DNA of 64,000 bases, taken from Burkholderiales bacterium PBB1. GTDB taxonomy: Bacteria > Pseudomonadota > Gammaproteobacteria > Burkholderiales > Burkholderiaceae_C. The stretch's first letter is position 1. Every line of letters begins with the position of its first letter. The stretch spans positions 186,001-250,000 of the forward strand of contig NKIN01000004.1 in NCBI GenBank assembly GCA_002255905.1, written 5' to 3'. Shown here in pieces: positions 17,774-30,260 of the stretch. The notes under the pieces were generated by a model. It saw nothing but the letters and a program-made list of their open reading frames with translations, searched no databases and was not told where the DNA came from. The position numbers were made by a program, and so were the translations under genes.

Positions 17774-18226
17774 TCAGGAATTCGCTCGCCGCTTCAGCCA
17801 GCGCATGAGCGCGCCGACGCCGGGCAGTTTTTCGTACAGTTCCTCGGCCACGTCCCAGTAGTCGCGGTGCAGCGTGATCAGCCCGTGGGCATCAAGCTTC
17901 AGGTGCGAGGCGCCACGCACCGTCTGCCATTCGCGGCTGAAGCGCCTGAAGCGGAAGATGAAATCCCAGGTCAGCACGCACTGGTCGCCTTGCGCCACCA
18001 CGTCGTGGATGACGAAACGCGGTGCCTCCAGCGCCACGTACATGTGCTCGAACACTTGCTGTATCGCCAGCACGCCACGCACTTCGTTGAAGGGGTCCTT
18101 GAACTCGGCGTCTGGCGCATAGAACTCGCCGAGCCGGGGCAGATCGGCGGGCGTCAGGCCTTCGAAGGCTTCGATGATGCGTGCCACGCGGGGGTCGTGG
18201 CTGCGTGCGGCTGAATCGTGGGTCAT
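17774..18226 (-). CDS. SnoaL/NTF2-like protein
   Basis: This 150-residue protein has the cone-shaped NTF2-like fold signature: an N-terminal helix, YAPDAEFKDPFNEVRG, HDVVAQGDQCVLTWDF, and LITLHRDYWDVAEELY. The family includes small isomerases, hydratases and binding proteins, so the reaction is open. It is the last gene of the leftward lipid-remodelling operon, 7 bp after the SDR gene. The ATG at 18226 is used rather than a codon 51 bp upstream, which would overlap the SDR gene. Confidence 0.8.
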   Translation of the reverse strand: MTHDSAARSHDPRVARIIEAFEGLTPADLPRLGEFYAPDAEFKDPFNEVRGVLAIQQVFEHMYVALEAPRFVIHDVVAQGDQCVLTWDFIFRFRRFSREWQTVRGASHLKLDAHGLITLHRDYWDVAEELYEKLPGVGALMRWLKRRANS

Positions 18227-18233
18227 GGGGTGG

Positions 18234-19007
18234 CTACAACCCCGTGACGCGTCGGATAGCCCGAAAGTACAGGCCATCGCCGAGGTGGCTCAGCGCCTTC
18301 AGGAAACGCGTGAACCGCTTCGGGAAATGGATTTCGAACTCCCCCGCCGCCCAGCCGGCCAGCATCTCCTGCGCAGCCTCTTCAGGCTGGATCAGCGCCG
18401 GCATCTTGAACTCGTTCTGTGCTGTCAGCGGTGTCTCGACGAAGCCCGGGCAGATCACCGACACGCCAACGCCCTGCGGCTGCAGATCGAGGTACAGCGT
18501 CTGCGCCAGATTGATCAGCGCCGCCTTGGTCGGCCCGTAGGCCAGCGCATTCGGCAGGCCGCGGTAGCCTGCGACGCTCGCCACCAGGCTGATGTGCCCC
18601 GACTTCTGCCGCAGCAGCACCGGCAACACCGCGTCCAGCATGTACAGCGCGCCGACGTAGTTGACCTTGTCGTGCTGCAGCATCTGATCCAGATCGAAGG
18701 CGGTCGCGCGCAAGGCCGCGTAATGCCCGGCGCAGTACAGCGCCATGTCCAGCCGGCCGAAGCGCGCGACGATGCGCTGCACAGCGCGGGCCATGGCCTC
18801 GCGGTCGGTGGCGTCGAGCGGGATGCCCAGGCTGTCCGCATGCGCAGCTTCGAACGCCGCGAGGGCTGCCGCATTGCGCGCCGACACGATCACCTTCGCG
18901 CCGCGTGCATGCAGCAGTTGCGCCGTGGCAAGGCCGATGCCGCTCGAGGCCCCGACCAACCAGACCACGCGGCCATGCCAGTCGCTGATGCGTGGGTTCA
19001 AGGACAT
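18234..19007 (-). CDS. Short-chain dehydrogenase/reductase
   Basis: A 257-residue SDR with the cofactor motif GASSGIG, a CAGHY segment in place of NAG, and the catalytic Ser...YGPTK (Tyr-x-x-x-Lys) arrangement. It would oxidise or reduce a hydroxyl or keto group with NAD(P)H; the substrate is unknown. SDR genes of this kind accompany FAD oxidase, DUF1365 and CFA-synthase genes in other proteobacteria, which suggests a lipid-linked substrate. A 109-bp gap with two hairpins separates it from the DUF3833 gene. Confidence 0.87.
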   Translation of the reverse strand: MSLNPRISDWHGRVVWLVGASSGIGLATAQLLHARGAKVIVSARNAAALAAFEAAHADSLGIPLDATDREAMARAVQRIVARFGRLDMALYCAGHYAALRATAFDLDQMLQHDKVNYVGALYMLDAVLPVLLRQKSGHISLVASVAGYRGLPNALAYGPTKAALINLAQTLYLDLQPQGVGVSVICPGFVETPLTAQNEFKMPALIQPEEAAQEMLAGWAAGEFEIHFPKRFTRFLKALSHLGDGLYFRAIRRVTGL

Positions 19008-19017
19008 GACGGCGCCC

Positions 19018-19055
19018 CGATCGACGGGGTCGTCGATCGACCCTCCGAGAGGGTC
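19018..19055. repeat. Two tandem hairpins between DUF3833 and SDR genes
   Basis: Two perfect inverted repeats lie side by side: CGATCGAC/GTCGATCG (8-bp stem, 6-nt loop) and GACCCTC/GAGGGTC (7-bp stem, 3-nt loop). They occupy the only long gap inside the leftward operon. No T tract follows, so an RNA-processing or stability role is more likely than termination. Confidence 0.5.
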
Positions 19056-19116
19056 GGGCCTTGCTTGGGGCGGCCCGGCGCGGCGGCCCGCGCGCTGCCA
19101 ACAGCCAGACGGGTCC

Positions 19117-19650
19117 TCATGGTTTGTAAAAGGACAGCGTCACATCACCCAGCCGCACTCCGAACTTGCTCATCACCGCCTTGTTCAGCATCACGTGCTC
19201 GTCCATCAGGTACATCCAGTCATCGAACTGCACCTCGTAGGTCTTGCCGTCGACCGGCAGGTTCAGCGTGTAGCTCCACTGGAATGCGTTGCCCGCGCTC
19301 TGGCCCTGGGCCGTGCCGACCACATCGGCGGCGGTACCGGTGTAGCGCCCGTTGGGCAGCTTCTTCAGGTACCAGATGCGCTGCTGCTTCTCGCCGTCGT
19401 TGTAGGTGAATCGCTCGTCGAGCACGCCATCGTCGCCTTGCCAGCTGCATTTCATCAGCACGGTGAAGCGGCGCACCACCTTGCCCGAGCGGTCGGTGAA
19501 CAGCCCGTGCGCGGTGATGTCGCCATCGAAGTAGGCCTTCAGATCGAGCACCGGCTTTTCGGCGGCGTAATCGGCCGGCGTCGGTCCGGCACAGGAAGCC
19601 AGCAAGGCCAGGGCAGCCACGGCCAGCGCTCGCGTCAAGAATCTGTTCAT
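19117..19650 (-). CDS. DUF3833 lipoprotein
   Basis: A 177-residue lipoprotein with signal peptide and lipobox LASC near residue 20. The body matches the DUF3833 family as I recall it: LDLKAYFDGDITAHGLF, FTVLMKCSWQGD, LPNGRYTGTAADVVG, and a closing DEHVMLNKAVMSKFGVRLGDVTLSF. Members sit in clusters with CFA-synthase-like and FAD-oxidase genes and have no assigned reaction. The start overlaps the end of the MFS gene by four bases. Confidence 0.85.
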   Translation of the reverse strand: MNRFLTRALAVAALALLASCAGPTPADYAAEKPVLDLKAYFDGDITAHGLFTDRSGKVVRRFTVLMKCSWQGDDGVLDERFTYNDGEKQQRIWYLKKLPNGRYTGTAADVVGTAQGQSAGNAFQWSYTLNLPVDGKTYEVQFDDWMYLMDEHVMLNKAVMSKFGVRLGDVTLSFYKP

Positions 19651-20978
19651 GGTGTTTTCCGGGCGTGGTGGATCAGCAGGAGGTACAGCAACAGGGCCGC
19701 GCCCGCTTTCAGCAGGCAAGGCAACAGGCAATAGGCGGTGGTCAACGCAGACAGGGCCTGCGGGCTGTCGCTGCCGGGTGCGTAGCCGAACCATGACAAG
19801 GCAGGCAGCGCCACGCCAGCAGCCAGCGCTAGGTTCAGTTTGGTCGCGAAATTCCACCAGCCGAAGTACGCGCCCTCCGACTGCGCGCCATGCCCCGCGC
19901 GCTGGATCACACCGGCAAGGATGGCACTGGGCAAGGTCAGGTCGGCACCGAGCGCGATGCCGCTGAGCGTGCACACGACGGTATAGGCGACCACGTCGCC
20001 CGCGCCCAGTGTCGTCGCGCCGCTGAACACCGCGATGGCCAGAACCATGCTGATCAGCCACGCGCGCTCCAGCCCAACCCAGCGCACCGCCCGCACCCAC
20101 AGCGGGATCGACAACGCGCCCGCCGCGAAATAGCTCGCAAGAAACAAGGGCTCGAACGACGATGCCTGCAGTCGGTCGCGGATGAAGAACAGCACCAGCG
20201 TTGCTGGCACAGCACTCGCGATGCCATTCACCAGGTACACCGTCAGCAAACGCCGGAACGCTGGTGTCGCGAACGGCAGGCGCATCGATACCGGGCGCGC
20301 CGAAGGACTGGACGGGGCCGGTGTCGGCGCAGCGCGCAGGCACAGCACCCCGATGGCCAGCACCACCGCGAACACGCCGGTTGTCACCGCCATTCCCGTC
20401 AGCGATGGCAGCACACTGGCGACCAGCACGCCGACCAGCGCCAGGCCCTCCCGCCAAGCGACGATGCGCGCCCGCTGCGGCGCATCGCCGCCGAGCCGCG
20501 CGCCCCACGACTGGTGCACCACCGTGACGACGCTGTAACCGAGGTAGGTCACCGCCAGCGTCACGGCGCACCACACCAGCAAGGCCGATTCGCCCCGGAC
20601 TTGCGGAAAGAACAGTGCGGCGAAGCCGGCTGCCAGCACCACAGCTGCCATCAGGATCACCCACCAGGCGCGCCGGCCTCCGAGAGCAAGCCATCCGTCG
20701 GCGGCCCGCCCGATCAGCGGATCGGCAACAGCATCGAGTGCCCGCGCCCCCAGCAGCACCGCGCCCAAGGTGCCCAGTGGAATGCCGAACTCGGTGGCGT
20801 AGTGGTTGGGCAGCACCACGTAAAGCGGCAACGCCACGAAAGCCAGCGGCAAGCCCAGCGCACCGTAGCGCACGCCTTGTCGCCAACGTACCGAACCGAC
20901 ATCGCCGCTGTCGGCCGGGAAAGCGTCCGGGTCGATCGTGGCCGCCTCGTGGCGGCGGGCGGCGGCGTGCGAGGTCAC
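19647..20978 (-). CDS. MFS transporter of the lipid-remodelling operon
   Basis: A 443-residue transporter with 12 predicted helices, similar in layout to the glycoside-pentoside-cation (MelB-like) group: LGARALDAVADPLIGRAADG and GGRRAWWVILMAAVV in the first half and YFGWWNFATKLNLALAAG in the second. The role here is probably export or flipping of a lipid-related compound, by context only. It lies 11 bp after the chalcone-isomerase-like gene and overlaps the DUF3833 gene (ATGA). Confidence 0.82.
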   Translation of the reverse strand: MTSHAAARRHEAATIDPDAFPADSGDVGSVRWRQGVRYGALGLPLAFVALPLYVVLPNHYATEFGIPLGTLGAVLLGARALDAVADPLIGRAADGWLALGGRRAWWVILMAAVVLAAGFAALFFPQVRGESALLVWCAVTLAVTYLGYSVVTVVHQSWGARLGGDAPQRARIVAWREGLALVGVLVASVLPSLTGMAVTTGVFAVVLAIGVLCLRAAPTPAPSSPSARPVSMRLPFATPAFRRLLTVYLVNGIASAVPATLVLFFIRDRLQASSFEPLFLASYFAAGALSIPLWVRAVRWVGLERAWLISMVLAIAVFSGATTLGAGDVVAYTVVCTLSGIALGADLTLPSAILAGVIQRAGHGAQSEGAYFGWWNFATKLNLALAAGVALPALSWFGYAPGSDSPQALSALTTAYCLLPCLLKAGAALLLYLLLIHHARKTP

Positions 20979-20989
20979 GGGCAGAGCGC

Positions 20990-21574
20990 TCAGGAGCCGT
21001 TCGGGGCGCCGGCCAGCAACGCCTCGCGCAGCCGGGGCTCGGAGGTGCGTGTCGACAGCCAGATGCCGAAGAACAGCCGTGTGAATTCGGCGTCGCGGAT
21101 CTCGCCGGTGAGCCTGCCGTTGACGAAATAGCGCGCCGCCACGCCGGGCACCTGCACGCCGGTCGTGCGATCGCCCGCGGCGACGTTCGGGAAGGCCTGC
21201 TTCATGGCGTTCAGCCAGCGGGTCGCTTTCTCAGGGGCGATCGGCCCGCTGCGCCGCATTTCCTCGATCGAGCGTTCGGCGATGTCGACGTTGTCGAAGC
21301 CGCGCGCATATTCAAGTTCAAGCGCCAGTGGCACCTGGTCGTAGCGCGCCACGTCGAATTCGGGCCCGGCCCACAGCCTCGCGTCGTAGACGTGGAACAG
21401 CATGAACGTCAATCGACCACTGCCGAGCAGCCGCGCGCCCGGCAATTCACTGCGCACCTCGGGCGGCAGGGGCGGCACCGATCGGGCCAGCGCTGGCGTG
21501 AGGGCAGCGCACGCCAGTGGCCAAGCCAGCAGCGCCCGGCGGTGGCTGTCGACGGTGGAGTGCGGTCTCGTCAT
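20990..21574 (-). CDS. Chalcone isomerase-like exported protein
   Basis: A 194-residue protein whose body (VRSELPGARLLGSGRLTFMLFHVYDARLW split over two strands, then YARGFDNVDIAERSIEEMRR and RYFVNGRLTGEI) fits the chalcone-isomerase-like family of bacteria, a fold that binds fatty acids in plant relatives. An RR pair before a hydrophobic stretch suggests a Sec or Tat signal peptide. The ATG at 21574 is chosen; it begins one base after the CFA-synthase stop codon. Confidence 0.75.
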   Translation of the reverse strand: MTRPHSTVDSHRRALLAWPLACAALTPALARSVPPLPPEVRSELPGARLLGSGRLTFMLFHVYDARLWAGPEFDVARYDQVPLALELEYARGFDNVDIAERSIEEMRRSGPIAPEKATRWLNAMKQAFPNVAAGDRTTGVQVPGVAARYFVNGRLTGEIRDAEFTRLFFGIWLSTRTSEPRLREALLAGAPNGS

Positions 21575-21575
21575 C

Positions 21576-22802
21576 TCAGTCGCGTTGCAGGGTGAACTGC
21601 ATGACATCGGTGTTGCCCATCGTGAACGCAGCCTCGCAGTAGGCGAGGTAGAACTCCCAGATGCGCATGAAGCGACTGTCGAAGCCGAGCTGGCGCACCG
21701 GCCCTTCCTGGCTCAGAAATCGTTGCCGCCAGCGCAGCAGCGTCTCGGCGTAGTCCAGCCCGAAAGCCAGCTCGCCCACCACGCGCAGGCCCGCGCGGGC
21801 CGCGGCCTTGCGAAACTCGGTCGGGCTGGGCAACAACCCGCCGGGAAAGATGTACTGCTGGATGAAGTCGGTGGAGTGAACGTAGCGCTCGAACAGGTCG
21901 TCGCGGATCACGATGCTCTGCACACAGGCCTTGCCGCCAGGCTTCAGCTGGGCGCTGACGGTGTCGAAGAAGCTGGGCCAGTACTCGCGACCCACCGCTT
22001 CGAACATCTCGATCGAGGCAATCGCGTCGAACGGCGCATCGCTGCCGGTGTTCAGCTCGCGGTAATCCTGGAAACGCAGGTCGCCGGGCAAGGCTGCATC
22101 GGCGAGGCGCTTCTGTGCCCATGCAAGCTGCTCGCTCGACAGCGTGACGCCCGTGACGGTGGCCCCGAATTCGCGTGCGGCGCATTCGGCCAGCGCACCC
22201 CAACCGCAGCCGATCTCCAGCACCCGGTCACCCGGCTTGACGCCGCACTCGGTGAGTGCGCGCCGGACTTTGGCCCATTGGGCCTCTTCCATCGGTCGCG
22301 CGCGGTCACCTTCGAACCAGGCGCTGGAGTAGTTCATCGTCGGGTCCAGCCACAGTCGATAGAACTCGTTGCCAAGGTCGTAGTGCGCGTGGATGTTCTT
22401 CTTGCTGCCCGAACGCGAATTGCGATTCAGCCAGTGCTTCGCGCGGTACAACAGTGCACCCCACCAGCTTCCGTAGACGAGGGATTCGACCTCGCTGCGG
22501 TTGGCGATCAGCAGCTTGAGCAGTGCCACCGGGTCGGGGGATGTCCAGTCGCCCGCAATGAAGCTTTCGGCAAAGCCGATGTCGCCAGAGCGGATCGTGG
22601 CCCCGCAGACGTTCCAGTTGACCAGACGCATGCTGGCGCGCAGTCCGCCATCGACGGCCTGGCCGACATGCAGGCCGCTGCCATCGGGCAACTGGATGTC
22701 CAGCGTGCCGTGCTTCAGATTCTTCAGCAGCCCGAACACGGCGCGGGCGGCCGCCGGAGCGGTGTCGGGCAGGGTCGCAGGGGAAAGTGTGGTGGTGCTC
22801 AT
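21576..22802 (-). CDS. Cyclopropane-fatty-acid-synthase-family methyltransferase
   Basis: A 408-residue SAM-dependent enzyme of the CFA synthase family, which methylates or cyclopropanates double bonds in membrane phospholipids. Seen are KKNIHAHYDLGNEFYRLWLD, the SAM-binding VLEIGCGWGALAE, YRELNTGSDAPFDAIASIEMFEAVG and the C-terminal FDSRFMRIWEFYLAYCEAAF. Homologues in photo-oxidative-stress clusters include the UfaM-type methyltransferases of furan fatty acid synthesis, so the product could be a methylated or furan lipid instead of a cyclopropane. The ATG at 22802 is preferred over a GTG one codon earlier. Confidence 0.92.
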   Translation of the reverse strand: MSTTTLSPATLPDTAPAAARAVFGLLKNLKHGTLDIQLPDGSGLHVGQAVDGGLRASMRLVNWNVCGATIRSGDIGFAESFIAGDWTSPDPVALLKLLIANRSEVESLVYGSWWGALLYRAKHWLNRNSRSGSKKNIHAHYDLGNEFYRLWLDPTMNYSSAWFEGDRARPMEEAQWAKVRRALTECGVKPGDRVLEIGCGWGALAECAAREFGATVTGVTLSSEQLAWAQKRLADAALPGDLRFQDYRELNTGSDAPFDAIASIEMFEAVGREYWPSFFDTVSAQLKPGGKACVQSIVIRDDLFERYVHSTDFIQQYIFPGGLLPSPTEFRKAAARAGLRVVGELAFGLDYAETLLRWRQRFLSQEGPVRQLGFDSRFMRIWEFYLAYCEAAFTMGNTDVMQFTLQRD

Positions 22803-22857
22803 CACGTCGAAGGCAGAGAGGCAGCAAAAACTGAAAGCATAAAAGCAGGGCGCGCTT

Positions 22858-23670
22858 TCAGCGCGTCACGAACACGGCAGGTGGTGAGGGTTTGCGCCAG
22901 AACGGCACCCGCTTGACCCACAGGCGCAGCGCCTGCCAGTGGATCCGGCCGATCACCCCCAACGTCATCAGCGGCATGCCGAAGAAGGCCCGACGCAGGC
23001 TGCGCGCCGACATCACTTCAAGCTCGCCTGACACGCTGGTCTGGATCAGCGCACCGAGCTCGTCGTCGTGGTCGATGCGGGCCACTGTCCTCGCGATCAC
23101 ATTACGCCCCATGCCGCTCGTTGGATGCGCGGTGCTGTGCATGAAGCGGAACCGATAGTGTCCGTTCACCGCGCAGAACGGGGACACATGGAACACCTTG
23201 GTGGCTGTCTGTTCCCTGCCGTAGCCGAGTTGCGGTCCGTGCAGCAGGTAGCAATGCCGCTCGCCGAAGGTGTTGTTGACCTCGACCACCACCGCCGCCA
23301 ACGTACCGTCCGTGCGATGGCAGTACCAGAAGCTCACCGGTTTGAAGGTGTGGCCGAGCACGCGTGGATAGCAGTGCAACCAGACCTCGCCGCGCGCGTC
23401 GGTGATGCCGTCACGCAGCAGCAGTTCATCGAGCCAGGCCAGGCAGTCGGCGCGGCCATCACCATGGTCGCGATCGTGAAAGCTGATCAGCCCGAAGCGG
23501 TTGCGTGCCAGTGCCGCATGCGGTTCAGCCCGAAGCCGGCGCAGGGGCAGCATCAGAAAGTACGTCGGGTAGGCAAAGCGGTTCAACGCCGGTCGCAACC
23601 GGGTGTGGCGCACCTGCCCGAAGCCGATCAATGGGTCAGGCAGTGCGGTGTTGGCGAGGCTCACGGTCAT
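22858..23670 (-). CDS. DUF1365 protein
   Basis: A 270-residue protein of the DUF1365 family: GQVRHTRLRPALNRFAYPTYF at the start, LGHTFKPVSFWYC and FHVSPFC in the middle. It is almost always found beside the FAD amine-oxidase-like protein and a CFA-synthase homologue. No catalytic mechanism is established to my knowledge. It overlaps the FAD gene by four bases (ATGA), so the two are translationally coupled. Confidence 0.92.
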   Translation of the reverse strand: MTVSLANTALPDPLIGFGQVRHTRLRPALNRFAYPTYFLMLPLRRLRAEPHAALARNRFGLISFHDRDHGDGRADCLAWLDELLLRDGITDARGEVWLHCYPRVLGHTFKPVSFWYCHRTDGTLAAVVVEVNNTFGERHCYLLHGPQLGYGREQTATKVFHVSPFCAVNGHYRFRFMHSTAHPTSGMGRNVIARTVARIDHDDELGALIQTSVSGELEVMSARSLRRAFFGMPLMTLGVIGRIHWQALRLWVKRVPFWRKPSPPAVFVTR

Positions 23671-24980
23671 GCGGCCACCGGCACGGGGCGTGGTTCGGTC
23701 TGGGCCCAGCGGCGGCGCAGCCCGTCGACCACCGCGAGACCGGACATCAGCCCGTCTTCATGGAAGCCGTAGCGTGTCCAGGCGCCACAGAACCAGGTGT
23801 GCGCCTCGCCCTGCAGCGACGGCACCCGCTGCTGCGCTGCGATCGCGGCGGCGTCGAATACCGGGTGGGCGTAGTCGTACTCACCCTGCACGGTGTCTGC
23901 GCGCGGTTCGCTGATCGGATTGAGGGACACCACGACCGGTGTCTTGAAGGGCAGCGGTTGCAACCGGTTGATCAGGTAGTGCAGGCAGACTGCGGTCGAC
24001 TCGCGCGAGCCGTTGCCGGCGCGCTCGTAGTTCCATGCCGCCCAGGCGATCTTGCGGCGTGGCAGCACAACGGCGTCGGTGTGCAGCACCGCGCGGTTGC
24101 GGTGATAGCGGATCGCGCCCAGCACTTCGCGCTCGGCCACAGTGGCATCGGCCAGCAGCGCCAGCGACTGGTCGCTGTGGCAGGCGAGCACGACCTCATC
24201 GAACAGCTCGGTGCCGTGGTCGGTGGCCACGCTGACGCGGCCACCGCTCGGCGAGCGCCGCACGCTGCGCACCGGCGTGTGGAGCCGTGCATCGGGAATG
24301 TGGCGCAACAGCTTCTCGACGTACTGCCGCGCGCCGCCTTGCACGGTGTACCAGCGCGGGCGGTTCGTCACCTGGATCAGCCCGTGGTTGTGGCAGAAGC
24401 GGATCATCGTGGCGATGGGAAACCGCAGCATCTGATCGGTCGGACACGACCAGATGCAGCCGATCATCGGCAGGAAATACCAGTCGCGAAACTCGACGCT
24501 GAAGCGGTGATCGGCCAGGAAATCGCCAATGGCTTGTTGCTGCTCAATGGCCGTCCCGTGCTCTGCCAGCTCAGTGGCCAGGCGATTGAAGCGTGTCAGG
24601 TCGCGCAACATCCGCCAGAAGGCGGGGCGCATCAGGTTGCGGCGCTGCGCGAACACGCTGTTCAGGTCGCTGCCGCTCCACTCCAGGTCGATGTCGGGCA
24701 CCTGAACCGAGAACGACATGTCCGACAGCGCTGTGGGCACCTGCAAGTCGCCGAACAGCGCGATCAGCTTCGGGTAGGTGCGCTCGTTGAAGACGAGGAA
24801 ACCGGTGTCAACGCCATGCGTCTGGCCTTCGAGGGTGATGTCGACCGTGTGCGTGTGCCCACCGAAATAGGCCCCAGCTTCGAACAGCGTGACCTGCGCT
24901 TCGCCTGCCAAGGCGTGTGCAACCGACAGACCGGAGATGCCCGAGCCAACGACGGCGACGCGGCGGACGCCGTCAGACAC
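23667..24980 (-). CDS. FAD-dependent amine oxidase-like protein
   Basis: A 437-residue flavoprotein of the NAD/FAD-binding COG2907 type. The Rossmann motif VAVVGSGISGLSVAHAL is at the extreme N-terminus, followed by FEAG, GGHTHTVD and a C-terminal GAWTRYGFHEDGLMSG flavin segment. It probably oxidises a lipid or lipid-linked substrate with DUF1365. The start is GTG at 24980: AGGAGG lies 8 bases before it. A farther ATG at 25010 would overlap a hairpin with T tract and has no such site. It is the first gene of the eight-gene leftward operon. Confidence 0.92.
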   Translation of the reverse strand: MSDGVRRVAVVGSGISGLSVAHALAGEAQVTLFEAGAYFGGHTHTVDITLEGQTHGVDTGFLVFNERTYPKLIALFGDLQVPTALSDMSFSVQVPDIDLEWSGSDLNSVFAQRRNLMRPAFWRMLRDLTRFNRLATELAEHGTAIEQQQAIGDFLADHRFSVEFRDWYFLPMIGCIWSCPTDQMLRFPIATMIRFCHNHGLIQVTNRPRWYTVQGGARQYVEKLLRHIPDARLHTPVRSVRRSPSGGRVSVATDHGTELFDEVVLACHSDQSLALLADATVAEREVLGAIRYHRNRAVLHTDAVVLPRRKIAWAAWNYERAGNGSRESTAVCLHYLINRLQPLPFKTPVVVSLNPISEPRADTVQGEYDYAHPVFDAAAIAAQQRVPSLQGEAHTWFCGAWTRYGFHEDGLMSGLAVVDGLRRRWAQTEPRPVPVAA

Positions 24981-25041
24981 AGGGCTGTTCCTCCTGATGC
25001 ACCAAAACAAAAGCGGCGATGGTGTCCTGGAAGGACATCAT
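24973..25041 (-). CDS. Possible 22-residue leader peptide of the FAD operon
   Basis: A short frame (MMSFQDTIAAF... ending in EEQPCV) begins inside the hairpin at 25048-25012 and stops at 24973, overlapping the GTG start of the FAD gene. Ribosomes on it would disrupt the hairpin and could couple translation to the FAD gene. There is only a weak purine stretch before its ATG. It is offered as a hypothesis, not a confirmed gene. Confidence 0.25.
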   Translation of the reverse strand: MMSFQDTIAAFVLVHQEEQPCV

Positions 25042-25048
25042 CGCCGCT
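25012..25048 (-). terminator. Hairpin with T tract in the leader of the FAD operon
   Basis: A 16-bp stem with one G-T pair and a 5-nt loop. On the minus strand it is followed at once by TTTTGTTTT, the form of an intrinsic terminator. It ends 31 nt before the GTG start of the FAD gene. It either ends readthrough from gpx or acts as an attenuator in the operon leader. Confidence 0.65.
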
Positions 25049-25422
25049 CTGCATAAAGAGGCTGCACAGCGCCCGGGGGCGAATAACGGAGGGAGGAGGA
25101 ATGAAAACCGCCGCCGGATTTCGATCGGTCGTGCCGATGGGCTGTGCAACGCGAAACCGGTTACAAAGACACTCGCCAGCCGACACCTTTCAATTTCGGG
25201 AAAAACGTCTCTGCCGATAAACGCGAGTGTCGTCAAGCGTTGACAGTGATTATAGACATTAAAACGACACGGTGGTTCCCCTAGTTCCGCAGAGGTTTCT
25301 GGGTTTGGGCCAACTGGAGGTGGATCGTGCCGGTGTCCGCGGCCGTCAGAGGTGGATGTGGCGTAATGAACCATGCTGTCCAAAATGTAACTGAACGGTA
25401 TATCCGGGTTCGAGCGACGGTT
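25049..25422. other. Gene-free interval between gpx and the FAD operon leader
   Basis: About 370 bp with lower GC than the surroundings. Apart from the promoter/operator candidate at 25232-25254 I see no credible coding frame; the longest open frames are unsupported by ribosome sites or family similarity. The stretch is long for a leader in this genome and suggests a regulated untranslated region. Confidence 0.5.
25232..25254 (-). promoter_or_regulatory. Candidate promoter and operator of the leftward lipid operon
   Basis: On the minus strand TATAAT lies at 25254-25249, with no good -35 upstream. Just downstream, GTCAA-N3-TTGAC (25232-25244) is a perfect palindrome covering the expected start point. 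Such a position fits a repressor that blocks RNA polymerase, as CarH/LitR proteins do in the dark. The site has not been compared with known LitR operators. Confidence 0.45.
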
Positions 25423-26013
25423 TCACGGCGCGGCCAGCAGCTTTTCGATGGTCTCAATGAACGACTTGTCGTCGGGCGCGGTCAGTGCGCTGTAGCTCTC
25501 CACGGTCGTGCCGTCCTTGGCGATCACGTACTTGTGGAAATTCCAGCGCGGCGCCGAGCCGGTCGCCTTACGCAGTTCGGCGTACAGCGGATTGACATCA
25601 GCGCCGGCGCTGGTCGACACCCGGGTCTTGGTGAACATTGGAAACTTGACGCCGAACGTGCTGGAGCAGAACGCCGCAATCTCCTGGTTGCTTCCGGGCT
25701 CCTGGCTGCCGAAGTCATTGGATGGAAAGCCCAGAACCACCAGACCACGCTCCCGATACCGGGCATACAGGGCTTCCAACCCCTTGTATTGCGAGGTGAA
25801 GCCGCAGTAGCTGGCGGTGTTCACGACCACGACGACCTTGCCGCTGTACTGGCACAAGTTCTGCGGTTTTTCGTCCTGCAGGCGCAGCATGCTGCGGTCC
25901 AACAGCGCGGGACAGCCCGCGGCATGAGCGCTCGCCGCGCAACCCATCAGCAACCCGGCCGCAATCAGTGATTTCAGTCGGGTTCTGAGCACTCGGATGT
26001 TGAAGGCGTCCAT
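25423..26013 (-). CDS. Exported glutathione peroxidase family protein
   Basis: A 196-residue thiol peroxidase with an N-terminal signal peptide (cleavage near AHAAG). The family motifs are VVVVNTASYCGFTSQYKGL with the peroxidatic cysteine, FPSNDFGSQEPGS, and RWNFHKYVIAKDG. It would reduce hydrogen or lipid peroxides in the periplasm. It is divergent from the MerR-type photoreceptor gene with a 63-bp gap, so the two may share control. Peroxidases of this family occur in singlet-oxygen regulons. Confidence 0.9.
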   Translation of the reverse strand: MDAFNIRVLRTRLKSLIAAGLLMGCAASAHAAGCPALLDRSMLRLQDEKPQNLCQYSGKVVVVVNTASYCGFTSQYKGLEALYARYRERGLVVLGFPSNDFGSQEPGSNQEIAAFCSSTFGVKFPMFTKTRVSTSAGADVNPLYAELRKATGSAPRWNFHKYVIAKDGTTVESYSALTAPDDKSFIETIEKLLAAP

Positions 26014-26076
26014 ACAGTGTCCTGGTCAAGATGTCGGCAAGAAAGTATATTGCGACCACTGAGATCCTGACGCGCC

Positions 26077-27015
26077 ATGAGTGATTCCACACGCAGTCTG
26101 AAATCGCTGACCCTGGCCATCGCAGCCGTCGAGCGCGATACCGGCCTGACCAAAGACACGCTGCGCGTCTGGGAGCGCCGCTATGGCTTCCCGCAACCTG
26201 AGCGGGACGCGAACGGCGAGCGCGCCTACCCTCTCGATCAGGTCGAGAAGCTTCGCATTGTCAAACGGCTGATGGACGGCGGGCACCGTCCCGGACGACT
26301 GGTGCCGATGCCGCTCGATGCGCTGGTCGAGCTCAGCGAGAACACCGTCGACGTGCCACGACGTTCCCAGGGCAGTCGCGGGGAGCCTGACCTCAAGTCC
26401 TACCTTGCCTTGATGCGTTCGCACGACATGGACGCCCTGCGCCGCCTGTTACTGCAAGCACAGATGCGCTTGGGCCTCTCGCGTTTCGTCCTCGATGTGG
26501 TGCTGCCTCTGAACACGCTGGTCGGCGATGCCTGGATGCGCGGCCAGCTCGAAATCTTCGAAGAGCACGCCTACATCGAATGTCTACAAGGCGTGCTTCG
26601 GCAGGCGCTGGCCGGTATCCCCGAAGCCGCGCCGCTCGATCGCCCGCGCGTGCTGCTGACAACATTGCCGGGCGAACCGCACGGCCTGGGGCTTCTGCTG
26701 GCCGAGGCCTTGTTCGCGCTGGATGGCGCGCGCGTGTTGTCGCTGGGGGTGCAGACGCCCGTGTGGGACATCTCGCTGGCGGCCGTGGCCTACCGCTGCG
26801 ACATCGTCGCGCTGGGATTCACCGGCTGCATGAACCCGAATCAGGTCGTCGACGGACTGAACGAGCTGCGCAGCAAACTGCCCCCGGAGGTGGAGTTGTG
26901 GGTTGGCGGTTCGGCACCGGTGCTGCACCGCCGGCCGGTCGAGGGCGTGATGGCGTTCGCCTCCTTGCAGGACATCCACCCGCAGCTCGAGCGCTGGCGG
27001 CACGGCGGCGCCTGA
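26077..27015 (+). CDS. MerR-family regulator with B12-binding photoreceptor domain (LitR/CarH type)
   Basis: A 312-residue light-sensing regulator candidate. Residues 12-75 form a MerR DNA-binding domain (TGLTKDTLRVWERRYGFP). A helical domain follows with Trp153 and Glu163-His164, exactly the Wx9EH signature of adenosylcobalamin photoreceptors. The Rossmann-type B12 domain has GEPHGLG, fitting the ExHxxG motif whose histidine (His202) binds cobalt in CarH. In CarH-type proteins, dark tetramers bind operators and light breaks them up. Neighbours are photolyase and DUF2256 downstream, and gpx and a lipid operon divergent. The TGATG overlap with DUF2256 indicates an operon. Confidence 0.92.
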   Translation: MSDSTRSLKSLTLAIAAVERDTGLTKDTLRVWERRYGFPQPERDANGERAYPLDQVEKLRIVKRLMDGGHRPGRLVPMPLDALVELSENTVDVPRRSQGSRGEPDLKSYLALMRSHDMDALRRLLLQAQMRLGLSRFVLDVVLPLNTLVGDAWMRGQLEIFEEHAYIECLQGVLRQALAGIPEAAPLDRPRVLLTTLPGEPHGLGLLLAEALFALDGARVLSLGVQTPVWDISLAAVAYRCDIVALGFTGCMNPNQVVDGLNELRSKLPPEVELWVGGSAPVLHRRPVEGVMAFASLQDIHPQLERWRHGGA

Positions 27016-27188
27016 TGGGGCCGGTGGCGGCATTCCGTGGCAACAAGTCAACCTTGCCGCAAAAGACCTGCCTGAGCTGCCAGCGACCGATGAGCTGGCG
27101 CCGCGCGTGGGCGAAGAACTGGGCCGAGGTGAAGTACTGCTCCGATCGGTGCCGAAGCCAGGCGGGGCGCCCGACCCCGACGCGATGA
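27015..27188 (+). CDS. DUF2256 small cysteine protein
   Basis: A 57-residue protein matching the DUF2256 family: LPQKTCLSCQRPMSWRRAW, then AEVKYCSDRCR. The CxxC...CxxxC arrangement suggests a metal (zinc) site. The family is strongly tied to cryptochrome/photolyase genes, and here it overlaps the regulator (TGATG) and the photolyase (ATGA). Its function is not known. Confidence 0.9.
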   Translation: MGPVAAFRGNKSTLPQKTCLSCQRPMSWRRAWAKNWAEVKYCSDRCRSQAGRPTPTR

Positions 27189-28759
27189 CCGGCACGCCGC
27201 GTCGGCTGGTGCTGGTGCTCGGCGATCAGCTCACACTGGACAGTCCGGCGTTGAAGGGGCTGGATGCGGTCCACGACCGCGTGCTGATGATCGAAGCCCC
27301 TGGCGAAGCGACCGAGGTCTGGAGCCACAAGGCGCGCATTGCGCTGTTCATCTCGGGCCTGCGCCACTTTCGCGATGCCCTGCGCGAGGCGGGCCATGCA
27401 GTCGACTATGTCTCGCTGAACGACAGCGACGAGCCCACGCTGACCGGCCGACTGGCCCAGCAGTTGAAGCGCCTGAGGCCCGACATCCTGCGGGTGCTGG
27501 AGCCTGGCGAATGGCGATTGCAGCAAGGCATCGCCGCCACGGCGCGCGAAGCCGGCGTGACGCTACAGTGGCTCGACGACGCGCACTTCCTGTGCTCGCG
27601 CGCTGACTTTGCGCGCTGGGCGAGCCCGTACCGCGGCAGTTTGCGGATGGAATACTTCTACCGCGAGATGCGGCGCCGGCACCGGGTGCTGATCGACCAC
27701 GTGGCGACAAAGCCCGACCAGCCTGAAGGGGGTCAGTGGAACTACGACGCCGACAACCGCAAGGGCTATCCGAAGTGCGGGCCTGGTCTGATCCCACCGC
27801 CTGAAATCTTCGCGCCCGATGCGTTGACACGCGAGGTGCTGGCCGATGTCGAGCGGCTGTTTTCGGCTCACCCCGGTTCACTCGCGCACTTTTTCTGGCC
27901 CGTCACGCGCGCGCAGGCGCTCATCGCATTGCAGGCCTTCATTGACCACCGGCTCGTCAACTTCGGTCACTATCAGGACGCGATGTGGTCGGGTACGCCG
28001 TTTGGTTGGCACTCGCTGCTGGCGAGCAGTCTGAACCTGCACCTGCTCGACCCGCGCGAAGTGATCGCAGCGGCTGAGCAGGCCTACCGCAGCGGCCACG
28101 CGCCGCTGGCTGCCGTGGAAGGTTTCATCAGGCAGATCCTGGGCTGGCGGGAATTCATCCGCGGCGTCTACTGGCGTGACATGCCGCAGATGGCCGAGGC
28201 CAATCATTACCACCACCACCGGCCGCTGCCGCGCTGGTTCTGGACCGGCCAGACCCGGATGGCCTGCGCGCGCGACGCGATCGAGCAGACCTTGCAGTAC
28301 GGCTACGCGCACCATATCCAGCGGCTGATGGTGACGGGCCTGTTCGGTCTGCTCGCCGAGATCGATCCGAAGCAGGTGGCCGCCTGGTACCTGGCTGTGT
28401 ATGTCGATGCCGTCGAATGGGCCGAGCTGCCCAATGTGTCCGGCATGGCCCTCTACGCCGACGGTGGGCGCTACACCAGCAAGCCGTATGTCGCCTCGGG
28501 GGCGTACATCCAGCGGATGAGCAACCACTGTGGGCAGTGCGCTTACGCACCGGACGCCAAGTCGGGCCAGGCCAACGGCAAGCCACTTTGCCCATACACG
28601 GTGCTGTACTGGCATTTCCTGGATCGCCACGAGGGCGCGCTGAGCGCCAACCCACGCACCGCCCTGATGGCCCGCAACGTGGCGCGCCTGCAGCCCGCGC
28701 AGCGCGAGCGCATCCGTGCCGATGCGCAGCGCGTACTCGACCAGCTCGATGACCTTTGA
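27185..28759 (+). CDS. FeS-type photolyase/cryptochrome (PhrB/CryB family)
   Basis: A 524-residue member of the iron-sulfur bacterial cryptochrome and (6-4) photolyase family (COG3046). The N-terminal LVLVLGDQLTLDSP is the family opening; the C-terminal catalytic region has GWREFIRGVYWRDMP and GYAHHIQRLMVTG. Four cysteines for a 4Fe-4S cluster are seen: RMACARDA, NHCGQC and PLCPY. It should repair UV (6-4) photoproducts or act as a blue-light sensor, using FAD. It is third in the regulator-DUF2256-photolyase operon. Confidence 0.93.
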   Translation: MTGTPRRLVLVLGDQLTLDSPALKGLDAVHDRVLMIEAPGEATEVWSHKARIALFISGLRHFRDALREAGHAVDYVSLNDSDEPTLTGRLAQQLKRLRPDILRVLEPGEWRLQQGIAATAREAGVTLQWLDDAHFLCSRADFARWASPYRGSLRMEYFYREMRRRHRVLIDHVATKPDQPEGGQWNYDADNRKGYPKCGPGLIPPPEIFAPDALTREVLADVERLFSAHPGSLAHFFWPVTRAQALIALQAFIDHRLVNFGHYQDAMWSGTPFGWHSLLASSLNLHLLDPREVIAAAEQAYRSGHAPLAAVEGFIRQILGWREFIRGVYWRDMPQMAEANHYHHHRPLPRWFWTGQTRMACARDAIEQTLQYGYAHHIQRLMVTGLFGLLAEIDPKQVAAWYLAVYVDAVEWAELPNVSGMALYADGGRYTSKPYVASGAYIQRMSNHCGQCAYAPDAKSGQANGKPLCPYTVLYWHFLDRHEGALSANPRTALMARNVARLQPAQRERIRADAQRVLDQLDDL

Positions 28760-28845
28760 ATCGCGCGCACCACGGCGCTCCTCCGGCATGCCACGCCGGG
28801 GCAACGCGACTAAACTTGGGTTCGTTTCAAATAGCCCGACCCATC

Positions 28846-29724
28846 ATGTCCAGCATGCTTTATCCCGAACTTTTCAAGCAGCTCGAAGCCGTGCGCTGGA
28901 GCATGGACACGGACATCCCCTGGGATCGCTTTGATGCCAGCCTGCTCACCGACGAGCAGGCGCAGACGATCAAGATGAACGCGATCACCGAGTGGGCGGC
29001 GCTGCCCGCCACCGAGATGTTCCTGCGCGACAACCGCGACGACAGCGACTTCTCCGCCTTCATGAGCGTCTGGTTCTTCGAGGAACAGAAGCATTCGCTG
29101 GTGCTGATGGAGTACCTGCGGCGCTTCCGGCCCGATCTGGTGCCCACCGAAGCCGAGCTGCACGAGGTGCGTTTCGAATTCGATCCAGCACCCGCGCTTG
29201 AAACGCTGATGATGCATTTCTGCGGCGAGATCCGGCTCAACCACTGGTACCGCCGGGCGGCCGAATGGCATCACGAGCCGGTGATCAAGGCCATCTACGA
29301 GACCCTGGCCCGCGACGAGGCCCGCCACGGCGGGGCCTACCTGCGCTACATGAAGCGCGCGCTGAACAATGCGGGTGACGAGGCCCGCGCGGCGTTTGCC
29401 AAGGTTGGCGTGCTGATGGCCAGCGCCCGCCGTACCGCGCAGGCGCTGCACCCGACCAACCTGCATGTGAACGAAAGCCTGTTCCCGCGGGACACGGTGC
29501 AAAGCCGGCTGCCCGATCCGGTCTGGCTCGAGGCCTGGCTCGACCGGCAGATCCACTTCGATGCTGAATGGGAAGGCAAGGTGGTCGATCGCATCCTGCA
29601 CAACATGAGCCTGCTGATGGAGCGCAGCTTTGCGACGGTGCAGGAGTTGAACCGCTTCCGCAAGGAAGTCACGGCCCGGCTCGCCGCGGCGGCCCAACCC
29701 GACGCGGGCATTGCGCCGGCCTGA
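28846..29724 (+). CDS. Ferritin-like di-iron protein, desaturase-like
   Basis: A 292-residue helical protein with two carboxylate/histidine motifs: WFFEEQKHSL (ExxH) and LARDEARHGG (ExxH). This matches the ferritin-like superfamily with the layout of acyl-ACP desaturases. The true substrate is unknown; a fatty-acid role is attractive because the divergent operon holds a CFA-type methyltransferase. The ATG at 28846 is chosen because strong conservation-like sequence starts there. The gap to the photolyase is 86 bp. Confidence 0.75.
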   Translation: MSSMLYPELFKQLEAVRWSMDTDIPWDRFDASLLTDEQAQTIKMNAITEWAALPATEMFLRDNRDDSDFSAFMSVWFFEEQKHSLVLMEYLRRFRPDLVPTEAELHEVRFEFDPAPALETLMMHFCGEIRLNHWYRRAAEWHHEPVIKAIYETLARDEARHGGAYLRYMKRALNNAGDEARAAFAKVGVLMASARRTAQALHPTNLHVNESLFPRDTVQSRLPDPVWLEAWLDRQIHFDAEWEGKVVDRILHNMSLLMERSFATVQELNRFRKEVTARLAAAAQPDAGIAPA

Positions 29725-29786
29725 GCCGCGCTGCGCCTGCGCGAGCGCCCACCGGGTTGACCGACCCAGCCCGATGTGCCCGGCCC

Positions 29787-30260
29787 ATGAGTGACTTCAC
29801 TGACAAGCTGTGTCCGCCCAGCGAGGTCGAGCAGCGTATCGCCGCGTTGCCCCGTCCGGTGGTGTTCACCAATGGCGTGTTCGATCTGCTGCACCGTGGT
29901 CATGTCACCTGCCTCGCCCGGGCCCGCGCGCTCGGTGCGAGTCTGGTCGTGGGGCTGAACAGCGATATCTCGGCGCGTGGCCTGGGCAAGGGCCCGGATC
30001 GCCCGCTGAACAGCCAGTACGACCGGGCCTGCGTGCTAGCCGCGCTGGAAAGCGTCAGCCTGGTGATCACTTTCGATGAGGCAACGCCGATCGAATTGCT
30101 CAAGCGCGTGCGACCTCAGTGGTATGTCAAGGGCGGCGACTACGACATCGAGACGCTGGCCGAAACCGCGCTGGTGCGCAGCTGGGGCGGCAACGCCCGC
30201 GCACTGCCGTTTGTCGACGGGCAGTCCACCACCGCCCTGGTTCAACGCATCCGCGCTTGA
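29787..30260 (+). CDS. rfaE2: D-glycero-beta-D-manno-heptose 1-phosphate adenylyltransferase
   Basis: This enzyme makes ADP-heptose for the LPS inner core. The 157-residue cytidylyltransferase fold has VVFTNGVFDLLHRGHVTCL, with the HxGH motif, and VGLNSDISARGLGKG. The kinase half (RfaE1) is not fused, which is normal in betaproteobacteria. It converges on glnE with a 19-bp gap. Confidence 0.93.
   Translation: MSDFTDKLCPPSEVEQRIAALPRPVVFTNGVFDLLHRGHVTCLARARALGASLVVGLNSDISARGLGKGPDRPLNSQYDRACVLAALESVSLVITFDEATPIELLKRVRPQWYVKGGDYDIETLAETALVRSWGGNARALPFVDGQSTTALVQRIRA

Follow-up and report, generated by a model that had tools for sequence, protein, structure and literature searches.

LitR/CarH regulators of class I act as repressors in the dark, when adenosylcobalamin (AdoCbl) is bound, and light breaks the Co-C bond of the cofactor, upon which the DNA is released. 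The operators of CarH have been described as tandem 11-bp repeats of the form nnnnTnnACAn (PMC9304148). In Pseudomonas, light induces phr, ufaM and their neighbours in class II LitR clusters through a LOV protein, and the class III LitR of Burkholderia is reported to have a light-dependent spectrum and a C-terminus resembling no functional domain, a B12 domain not being recognisable in it (PMC9758184). A methylated furan fatty acid is made in Rhodobacter and Rhodopseudomonas by UfaD, which possesses an NAD-FAD-binding domain, UfaO (DUF1365) and UfaM (PMC7380195). In Shewanella, phrB-cfa, a photolyase-related gene and the gene of a periplasmic GPX are under the control of ChrR-RpoE2 (PMC4336711), MerR (VCA0056)-phr and ChrR share the light response in Vibrio cholerae (PMC5241685), and the small RNAs (sRNAs) Pos19 and CcsR1-4 are part of the photo-oxidative response of Rhodobacter sphaeroides (PMC8307010). 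The window analysed here is a stretch of 64,000 nucleotides of Burkholderiales bacterium PBB1 (contig NKIN01000004.1, positions 186,001 to 250,000; G000:C15:186001-250000 in the numbering used here) from a genome of 3.25 Mb that is 99.6% complete. It carries a LitR/CarH-like regulator gene divergent from a glutathione peroxidase gene (gpx) and a lipid operon, and a conserved structured RNA lies before the latter.

A sequence-only reading of this DNA had described a photoprotection island that could be self-contained and driven by vitamin B12. This interpretation is partly supported. The genes that it named were confirmed at their positions; the island as self-contained and B12-driven is not supported in that form, as in this part of the genus gpx, a sigmaE-type promoter, the RNA and two terminator-like hairpins lie between the litR-gpx promoter and the lipid operon, which makes a second input, maybe a light-independent one, likely. 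The reading preferred here, to which we give somewhat better than even confidence, is a photoprotection island of a phototroph with two inputs, LitR and the sigmaE-type promoter of the RNA. The elements concerned are the following.

26077..27015, plus strand: LitR/CarH-like MerR regulator with a B12-binding half (Pfam MerR_1 and B12-binding_2; CarH of Thermus in the PDB)
26018..26029, no strand assigned: LitR operator candidate TGTCCTGGTCAA, scoring 9/11, which overlaps the probable -35 of litR near the start of gpx
25252..25281, minus strand: sigmaE-type promoter GGGGAAC-N17-GTCTAT, conserved among the closer members of the genus
25053..25154, minus strand: structured RNA built as a three-way junction, with a CCUCC-rich loop and a U-rich tail after stem P1, supported by covariation
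25004..25047, minus strand: second intrinsic-terminator-like hairpin before the FAD oxidase gene (GCGGCGATGATGTCC-TTCC-AGGACACCATCGCCGC-TTTTGTTTT, with a T tail)

Reading leftward from gpx to the FAD oxidase gene, the promoter-like element is followed by the conserved RNA and the second hairpin, and the lipid operon starts 23 bases past this hairpin. A hairpin like that at 25004-25047 is seen by eye in L046-L052 and not in L053, L054, L061 or L081. In the RNA, P1 closes the three-way junction, with P2 forming a short hairpin and P3 bearing a loop of 19-29 bases, which is on average 96% pyrimidine and possesses at least two overlapping CCUCC motifs in all of the 97 sequences compared; at least four T residues are present in the tail after P1 in 92 of these. 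Among 12 RNA sequences, eight of the 25 pairs change on both sides. Among the 97 sequences, which were aligned to the model and so with a bias towards its structure, this rises to 22 of 25 pairs, with 332 two-sided cells where shuffling gives 75 on average, a value reached in none of 500 shuffles. The proportion of cells that are paired is 93.0%, falling to 38-51% when the partners are slid. The fold of the whole leader beats all 200 shuffles (z -4.1), with covariation being the stronger evidence for the RNA than folding energy. Remote forms of the RNA precede a FAD oxidase gene in L214 and L283 (8008-8098), with the same three-way layout by eye, and the family may reach beyond its main group.

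The promoter is conserved with the RNA. A GGAAC[TC]-N16..18-TC element occurs within 180 bases upstream of the RNA at 73 of 89 loci (one of the 90 mapped loci had too little upstream DNA and was left out), compared with 0.85% of 8132 control windows, and on the opposite strand it occurs at none of the 89; a stricter form ending TC..A is found at 41 of them. None of the 4227 families of Rfam 15 reached its gathering score at the window RNA or at 18 further loci. In front of the lipid operon, neither a B12 riboswitch nor any other element known to Rfam attained that score. The sub-threshold matches at the window RNA were ar7 (20.8 of 60 bits, E 0.18), COG2827 (21.7 of 49.1) and, on the other strand, mir-Ro6-3 (23.4 of 79), and at the further loci a single such match touched the RNA (ncr1175 in L129, 28 of 60). 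In the literature searched, which leaves out most subscription papers, neither this RNA nor a control of ufa genes by LitR in Burkholderiales was described. Within the limits of these Rfam and literature searches, the RNA appears to be undescribed.

The RNA is a feature of the window's family, in which it was identified in 114 of 150 genomes at E <=1 (in 108 of these at E <=0.001), as a single strong copy in each; such second matches as were listed score weakly, and the host genome has one match. In the order sample, searched under strict filters, it was present in 13 of 399 genomes, namely 12 of the 14 from the window's family and one from another. In the class sample it was present in three of 204 genomes, all three from the window's family. 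It also occurs at 30 of 80 litR loci from named genomes (Rubrivivax, Rhizobacter, Methylibium, Polaromonas and others), which suggests that the group bearing it is Comamonadaceae-like. Outside the main family, 43 loci without a model match were inspected before the lipid operon: nine showed a hairpin followed by T residues in a crude fold test, and none had this structure by eye. The RNA occurs independently of LitR, which in the order sample is missing from seven of the 12 RNA-bearing genomes of the family.

The surroundings of the RNA were mapped at 90 loci, one per genome, out of the 114 matching genomes. A FAD oxidase gene lies within 700 bases downstream in 51 of these, gpx precedes the RNA in 40, a convergent corA follows it in ten, and at ten loci no query gene was found on either side. 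A purely cis-acting leader of the lipid operon (an attenuator or ligand sensor), with no trans-acting sRNA, would be in keeping with the distance of -7 to 144 bases from the RNA to the FAD oxidase match in those 51 loci, with the terminator-like hairpin just upstream of the FAD oxidase gene in the window and with the outliers L214 and L283, which likewise precede a FAD oxidase gene. We regard this explanation as unlikely, as 39 of the 90 loci have no FAD oxidase within 700 bases, with corA converging on the RNA in ten, and as the T-rich end is kept in 37 and the promoter in 31 of these 39, which fits a free-standing RNA gene; the corresponding figures with a FAD oxidase downstream are 46 of 51 and 42 of 50. 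Because of the stand-alone copies, the RNA is read as an independent sRNA, which in the window's family would also form a second gate between sensor and operon. Its pyrimidine loop is complementary to Shine-Dalgarno sequences, and action in trans is probable. At five loci (L152, L163, L164, L201 and L203) a convergent corA follows the RNA, neither gpx nor the lipid operon being seen within the 6 kb fetched, and four of them retain a GGAAC-type promoter.

For the first input, the MerR regulator was found to match MerR_1 (PF13411) at 43.5 bits (cut-off 21.6) and B12-binding_2 at 28.2 bits (cut-off 23). CarH of Thermus in the PDB matches it with an E value of 1.1e-23, its chains aligning over residues 12-252 and 12-281, across the MerR head and the B12 half. 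The Wx9EH and ExHxxG signatures noted in the sequence-only reading were located at W153/E163/H164 and E200/H202/G205: W153, E163, H164, E200 and H202 are invariant in all 35 aligned homologues, and G205 is kept in at least 90%. LitR is single in the host genome, which also encodes an adenosyltransferase for coenzyme B12. Elsewhere, a LitR match at G250:C5:5503-6477 is split into two adjoining pieces and may be a broken or divergent copy, and G015 has four LitR matches in one genome, one of them interrupted by an inner stop.

Comparison of 40 litR loci yielded the operator motif TTGTCCWWGACAA, a conserved 13-bp inverted repeat. In a held-out set (80 loci fetched, four near-identical and two short of upstream DNA dropped, leaving 74), the best score per litR upstream region was 11/11 in 32 and 10/11 in 28, that is, at least 10/11 in 60 of 74, whereas 0.32% of 3438 control windows reached 10/11 or more and 3.6% reached 9. 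The sites are often doubled at a spacing of 62-64 bp (26 pairs). The pattern TGTCCWRGWCAA has one exact match in the 3.25 Mb genome, which is the litR-gpx intergenic site. Operator-like sites scoring at least 9/11 were also found 38-230 bp upstream of the FAD oxidase gene in five relatives lacking gpx at the intervening position (L063, L067, L068, L078 and L082). CarH-like 11-bp repeats at litR (nnCAAannnnn, by eye) were dropped once the wider locus set gave TTGTCCWWGACAA, and a wider LitR regulon in the host genome was set aside, none being visible in a scan allowing one mismatch.

The search of other Burkholderiales for the gene block that the sequence-only reading had proposed returned a LitR homologue (E <=1e-20) in 120 of 399 genomes. 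At 32 of the 40 litR loci the lipid operon, or the part of it that the fetched DNA can hold, is divergent from litR, in L082 only in part. L074, L076, L084 and L085 are without a divergent lipid operon and in L083 it runs in the same direction as litR; in L071, L073 and L077 the 1.5-2.6 kb of upstream DNA is too little to tell, L077 having FAD oxidase and CFA matches on the other side. For 47 of the 80 loci from named genomes the DNA reaches 9 kb or more upstream of litR; all but one of them (46 of 47) possess divergent FAD oxidase, DUF1365 and CFA genes, and gpx is present at 22 of the 47. Rubrivivax gelatinosus IM 151 (L225) shows the same gene order, with litR, the RNA and genes resembling ufaD, ufaO and ufaM.

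The absence of ChrR noted near the locus extends to the whole host genome, in which the ChrR model TIGR02451 has no match and the sole match to PF12973 over cut-off is a lone cupin, with no sigma-factor-like one, by eye, among the ORFs listed within the surrounding 3.3 kb. Two reaction-centre genes (PF00124, Photo_RC) lie side by side at G000:C8:588132-589799. The window's organism is probably a phototroph. Within the 399-genome order sample, 40 genomes encode reaction-centre proteins and four encode ChrR over cut-off, with five more matches below it. LitR is present in 32 of the 40 reaction-centre genomes and in 88 of the 359 others (Fisher p 7e-12, tallied by hand and with relatedness ignored), leaving eight reaction-centre genomes without it; ChrR over cut-off is found in none of the 40. 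Only G158 has both LitR and ChrR, and the family members G189, G318 and G341 have ChrR and no LitR. Mutual exclusion of ChrR and LitR across the order was considered and dropped, as it is not significant (p = 1.0, one genome with both).

Under the two-input reading, LitR-AdoCbl would occupy 26018-26029 in the dark, a site identified by comparison, and repress litR-DUF2256-phr and gpx. In the light, the Co-C bond would be broken, LitR would leave the DNA, and photolyase and peroxidase would be made. As the second input, a sigma factor of the sigmaE type would act on the promoter at 25252-25281 and drive transcription of an RNA whose own U-tailed stem can terminate it. The 23 bases past the second terminator leave hardly any room for a promoter, and transcripts of the lipid operon therefore probably pass through the RNA, reading through from a start at the sigmaE-type promoter, at the LitR-controlled gpx promoter or at both; LitR is for this reason unlikely to be the sole control of the operon. 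Membrane protection would then respond to light jointly with envelope or photo-oxidative stress, with LitR substituting for the missing ChrR. A more far-reaching proposal is tentative, and we lean slightly away from it: that the RNA, a three-way junction present as one strong copy in most sampled genomes of a Comamonadaceae-like family, represents a new family of sigmaE-driven anti-Shine-Dalgarno sRNAs serving also as transcribed leader and gate of the furan-fatty-acid operon, and that in phototrophic Burkholderiales the B12 photoreceptor LitR replaces ChrR in controlling the singlet-oxygen gene set, light (by LitR) and envelope stress (by the RNA promoter) being integrated in membrane protection.

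Several results weigh against the two-input reading. For the regulator, the B12-binding domain scores 21.4 bits, under its cut-off of 32.1, and the score of the curated CarH equivalog NF052513 is missed (110.8 versus 400 bits); it is because of these two results that the protein is termed LitR/CarH-like of the B12-binding sort and not a proven class member. For the operator, the best held-out score is 9 in 11, 8 in two and 7 in one of the 74 regions, and the window has one copy (9/11) where many relatives have two. The TGTCCWRGWCAA pattern was written to include the window site after that site had been seen, and with one mismatch it has 46 matches in the whole genome against 70 for a reversed control, giving no enrichment; a sigma70-type promoter at litR is at chance level (one found, 1.1 expected in the scan). 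Taken by itself, the 102-base core of the RNA exceeds shuffled sequences in fold stability by a moderate margin (z -2.3, four of 200 as good), and the RNA models were seeded at the window locus with the loop also scored, so that matches bearing CCUCC are favoured; the outliers L214 and L283 have C-rich loops without CCUCC. In G127 and G272, litR and the RNA are on separate contigs. In a subclade of the genus (L055-L058) the RNA was not found at this place and gpx lies 29-32 bases from the lipid operon, which can therefore do without the RNA.

The window's near relatives, moreover, are without an operator-like site before the lipid operon. Together with the conservation of the sigmaE-type promoter, the terminator-like hairpins between gpx and the operon and the occurrence of RNA and FAD oxidase without LitR, for example in G296 (L182) and G383 (L187), this favours a scheme in which LitR controls litR-DUF2256-phr and gpx only, and the RNA promoter makes the lipid operon part of a sigmaE-type regulon, neither light nor B12 having an effect on the operon. 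The divergence of the operon from litR at 46 of 47 loci argues against such a scheme, as do the gpx-operon junctions of L055-L058 and several other loci, which have no room for the RNA, and it is considered rather unlikely.

The leftward arm runs from gpx across a gap of 442 bases to the operon, with its genes in the order listed here.

25423..26013, minus strand: glutathione peroxidase (gpx), probably exported (PF00255, 112.3 bits; signal-like N-terminus by eye only)
23667..24980, minus strand: FAD oxidase, UfaD-like (PF01593, 53.9 bits; start better placed at GTG 24980)
22858..23670, minus strand: DUF1365 protein, UfaO-like (PF07103, 262.2 bits)
21576..22805, minus strand: SAM methyltransferase of the CFA family, UfaM-like (PF02353, 266.8 bits)
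20990..21607, minus strand: chalcone-isomerase-like protein, Chalcone_3 (PF16036, 39.5 bits)
19647..20978, minus strand: MFS_2 transporter (PF13347, 172.5 bits)
19117..19656, minus strand: DUF3833 protein (PF12915, 237.7 bits)
18234..19007, minus strand: short-chain dehydrogenase, SDR (PF00106, 142.8 bits)
17774..18277, minus strand: SnoaL-like protein, last gene of the operon (PF12680, 65.3 bits)

The divergent gpx and eight-gene lipid operon of the sequence-only reading are thus borne out by the ORFs and their Pfam domains. Likely counterparts of UfaD, UfaO (DUF1365) and UfaM (CFA-type) are consecutive at the head of the operon, matched at domain level only, its lipid products presumably being furan fatty acids. 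The likeness to the RpoE-ChrR regulon that had been pointed out is upheld, also at domain level, by comparison of the core gene content (UfaD/O/M-like genes, photolyase, SDR and GPX) with published lists, and the genes of this core regulon are indeed physically joined at a single place.

To the right of litR lie three further genes.

27015..27188, plus strand: DUF2256 protein (PF10013, 73.2 bits), overlapping the litR stop and the phr start
27185..28759, plus strand: FeS-type (6-4) photolyase of the CryB family, phr (DPRP, PF04244, 236.9 bits)
28846..29724, plus strand: di-iron (ferritin-fold) protein (FA_desaturase_2, a short match of 33.7 bits; AurF under its cut-off)

A rightward litR-DUF2256-phr operon had been proposed and is confirmed: litR and DUF2256 overlap by one base (TGATG) and DUF2256 and phr by four (ATGA), overlaps from which translational coupling of the three genes is likely. 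The best PDB match of phr is the PhrB (6-4) photolyase 5kcm (E 1.6e-139), with four cysteines aligned, which we take to be the holders of the FeS cluster. The trailing di-iron protein is present as described; it is not specific to the unit, as four genomes without detected LitR (G159, G296, G318 and G383) have its gene next to gpx or next to the RNA. It is seen as an older neighbour, and the older frame di-iron-rfaE2-glnE-corA is kept in loci lacking LitR. The gene arrangement around LitR is common in Burkholderiales. The di-iron gene (28846-29724, with 29778-30260 noted alongside) shows 89-97% identity within the genus, compared with 77-94% for LitR, and its usual companion is rfaE2.

This frame raises the idea that the genes are ordinary neighbours under separate control, persisting together by descent in a conserved glnE-rfaE2-di-iron-corA setting, and several loci do keep the frame without LitR and without the lipid operon. 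The divergence of litR and lipid operon is, however, kept across many families and in differing surroundings, including some with di-iron/rfaE2 on the other side, which makes this explanation very improbable.

How phototrophic Betaproteobacteria deal with singlet oxygen from their own bacteriochlorophyll becomes a directly testable question, for which Rubrivivax gelatinosus IM 151 could serve as a laboratory model, and the operator motif defines a testable regulon. If expressed, the RNA would constitute a conserved family of sRNAs not represented in Rfam, with an obvious route to an effect on translation.

Compared with known systems, the window LitR resembles class I LitR/CarH of Thermus, Bacillus and Myxococcus in its MerR head, its probable four-helix and B12 halves and its Wx9EH and ExHxxG signatures. 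The neighbours of class I regulators are carotenoid genes, whereas those of the window LitR are furan-fatty-acid, photolyase and peroxidase genes; the operator here is an inverted repeat of 13 bp that frequently occurs twice at a spacing of 62-64 bp, rather than clear tandem 11-bp repeats as in CarH (PMC9304148). The LitR hosts spoken of in PMC9758184 are non-phototrophic, whereas the window host has reaction-centre genes. The class II clusters of PplR and PmlR share litR, photolyase, SDR, FAD oxidoreductase, UfaM and hypothetical genes with the window (PMC9758184). Class II LitR, however, retains the four-helix domain only and responds to a short LOV protein (PMC9758184). The class II operator TGTACA-N12-TGTACA has no full match in the window, where the best matches reach 10/12 and neither is near the island. 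Unlike class III LitR, from which it is set apart by description only, the window LitR keeps the B12 ligand residues.

The MerR light regulator of V. cholerae adjoins phr, as here, but ChrR exists there and regulates most of the response (PMC5241685). The RpoE-ChrR (ECF11) regulon of Rhodobacter, Shewanella and Vibrio shares UfaD/UfaO/UfaM, photolyases and SDR with the island, and in Shewanella also a periplasmic glutathione peroxidase (PMC7380195, PMC4336711); in contrast to that regulon, the host is without ChrR and the window genes are joined at one place. No ECF11 promoter (TGATC-N17..20-CGTA) precedes the window operons, the one match in the 64 kb (TGATC-N18-CGTA) lying inside the SDR gene. 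The loop motif of the CcsR RNAs is CCUCCUCCC. The CcsR or cuckoo-type sRNAs of Alphaproteobacteria belong to the photo-oxidative response (PMC8307010), and the toxic small RNAs of Betaproteobacteria in Rfam RF02278 are sRNAs of Burkholderia (PMC4603805). Unlike both of these groups, the window RNA is a three-way junction of which the closing stem carries the T-rich end.

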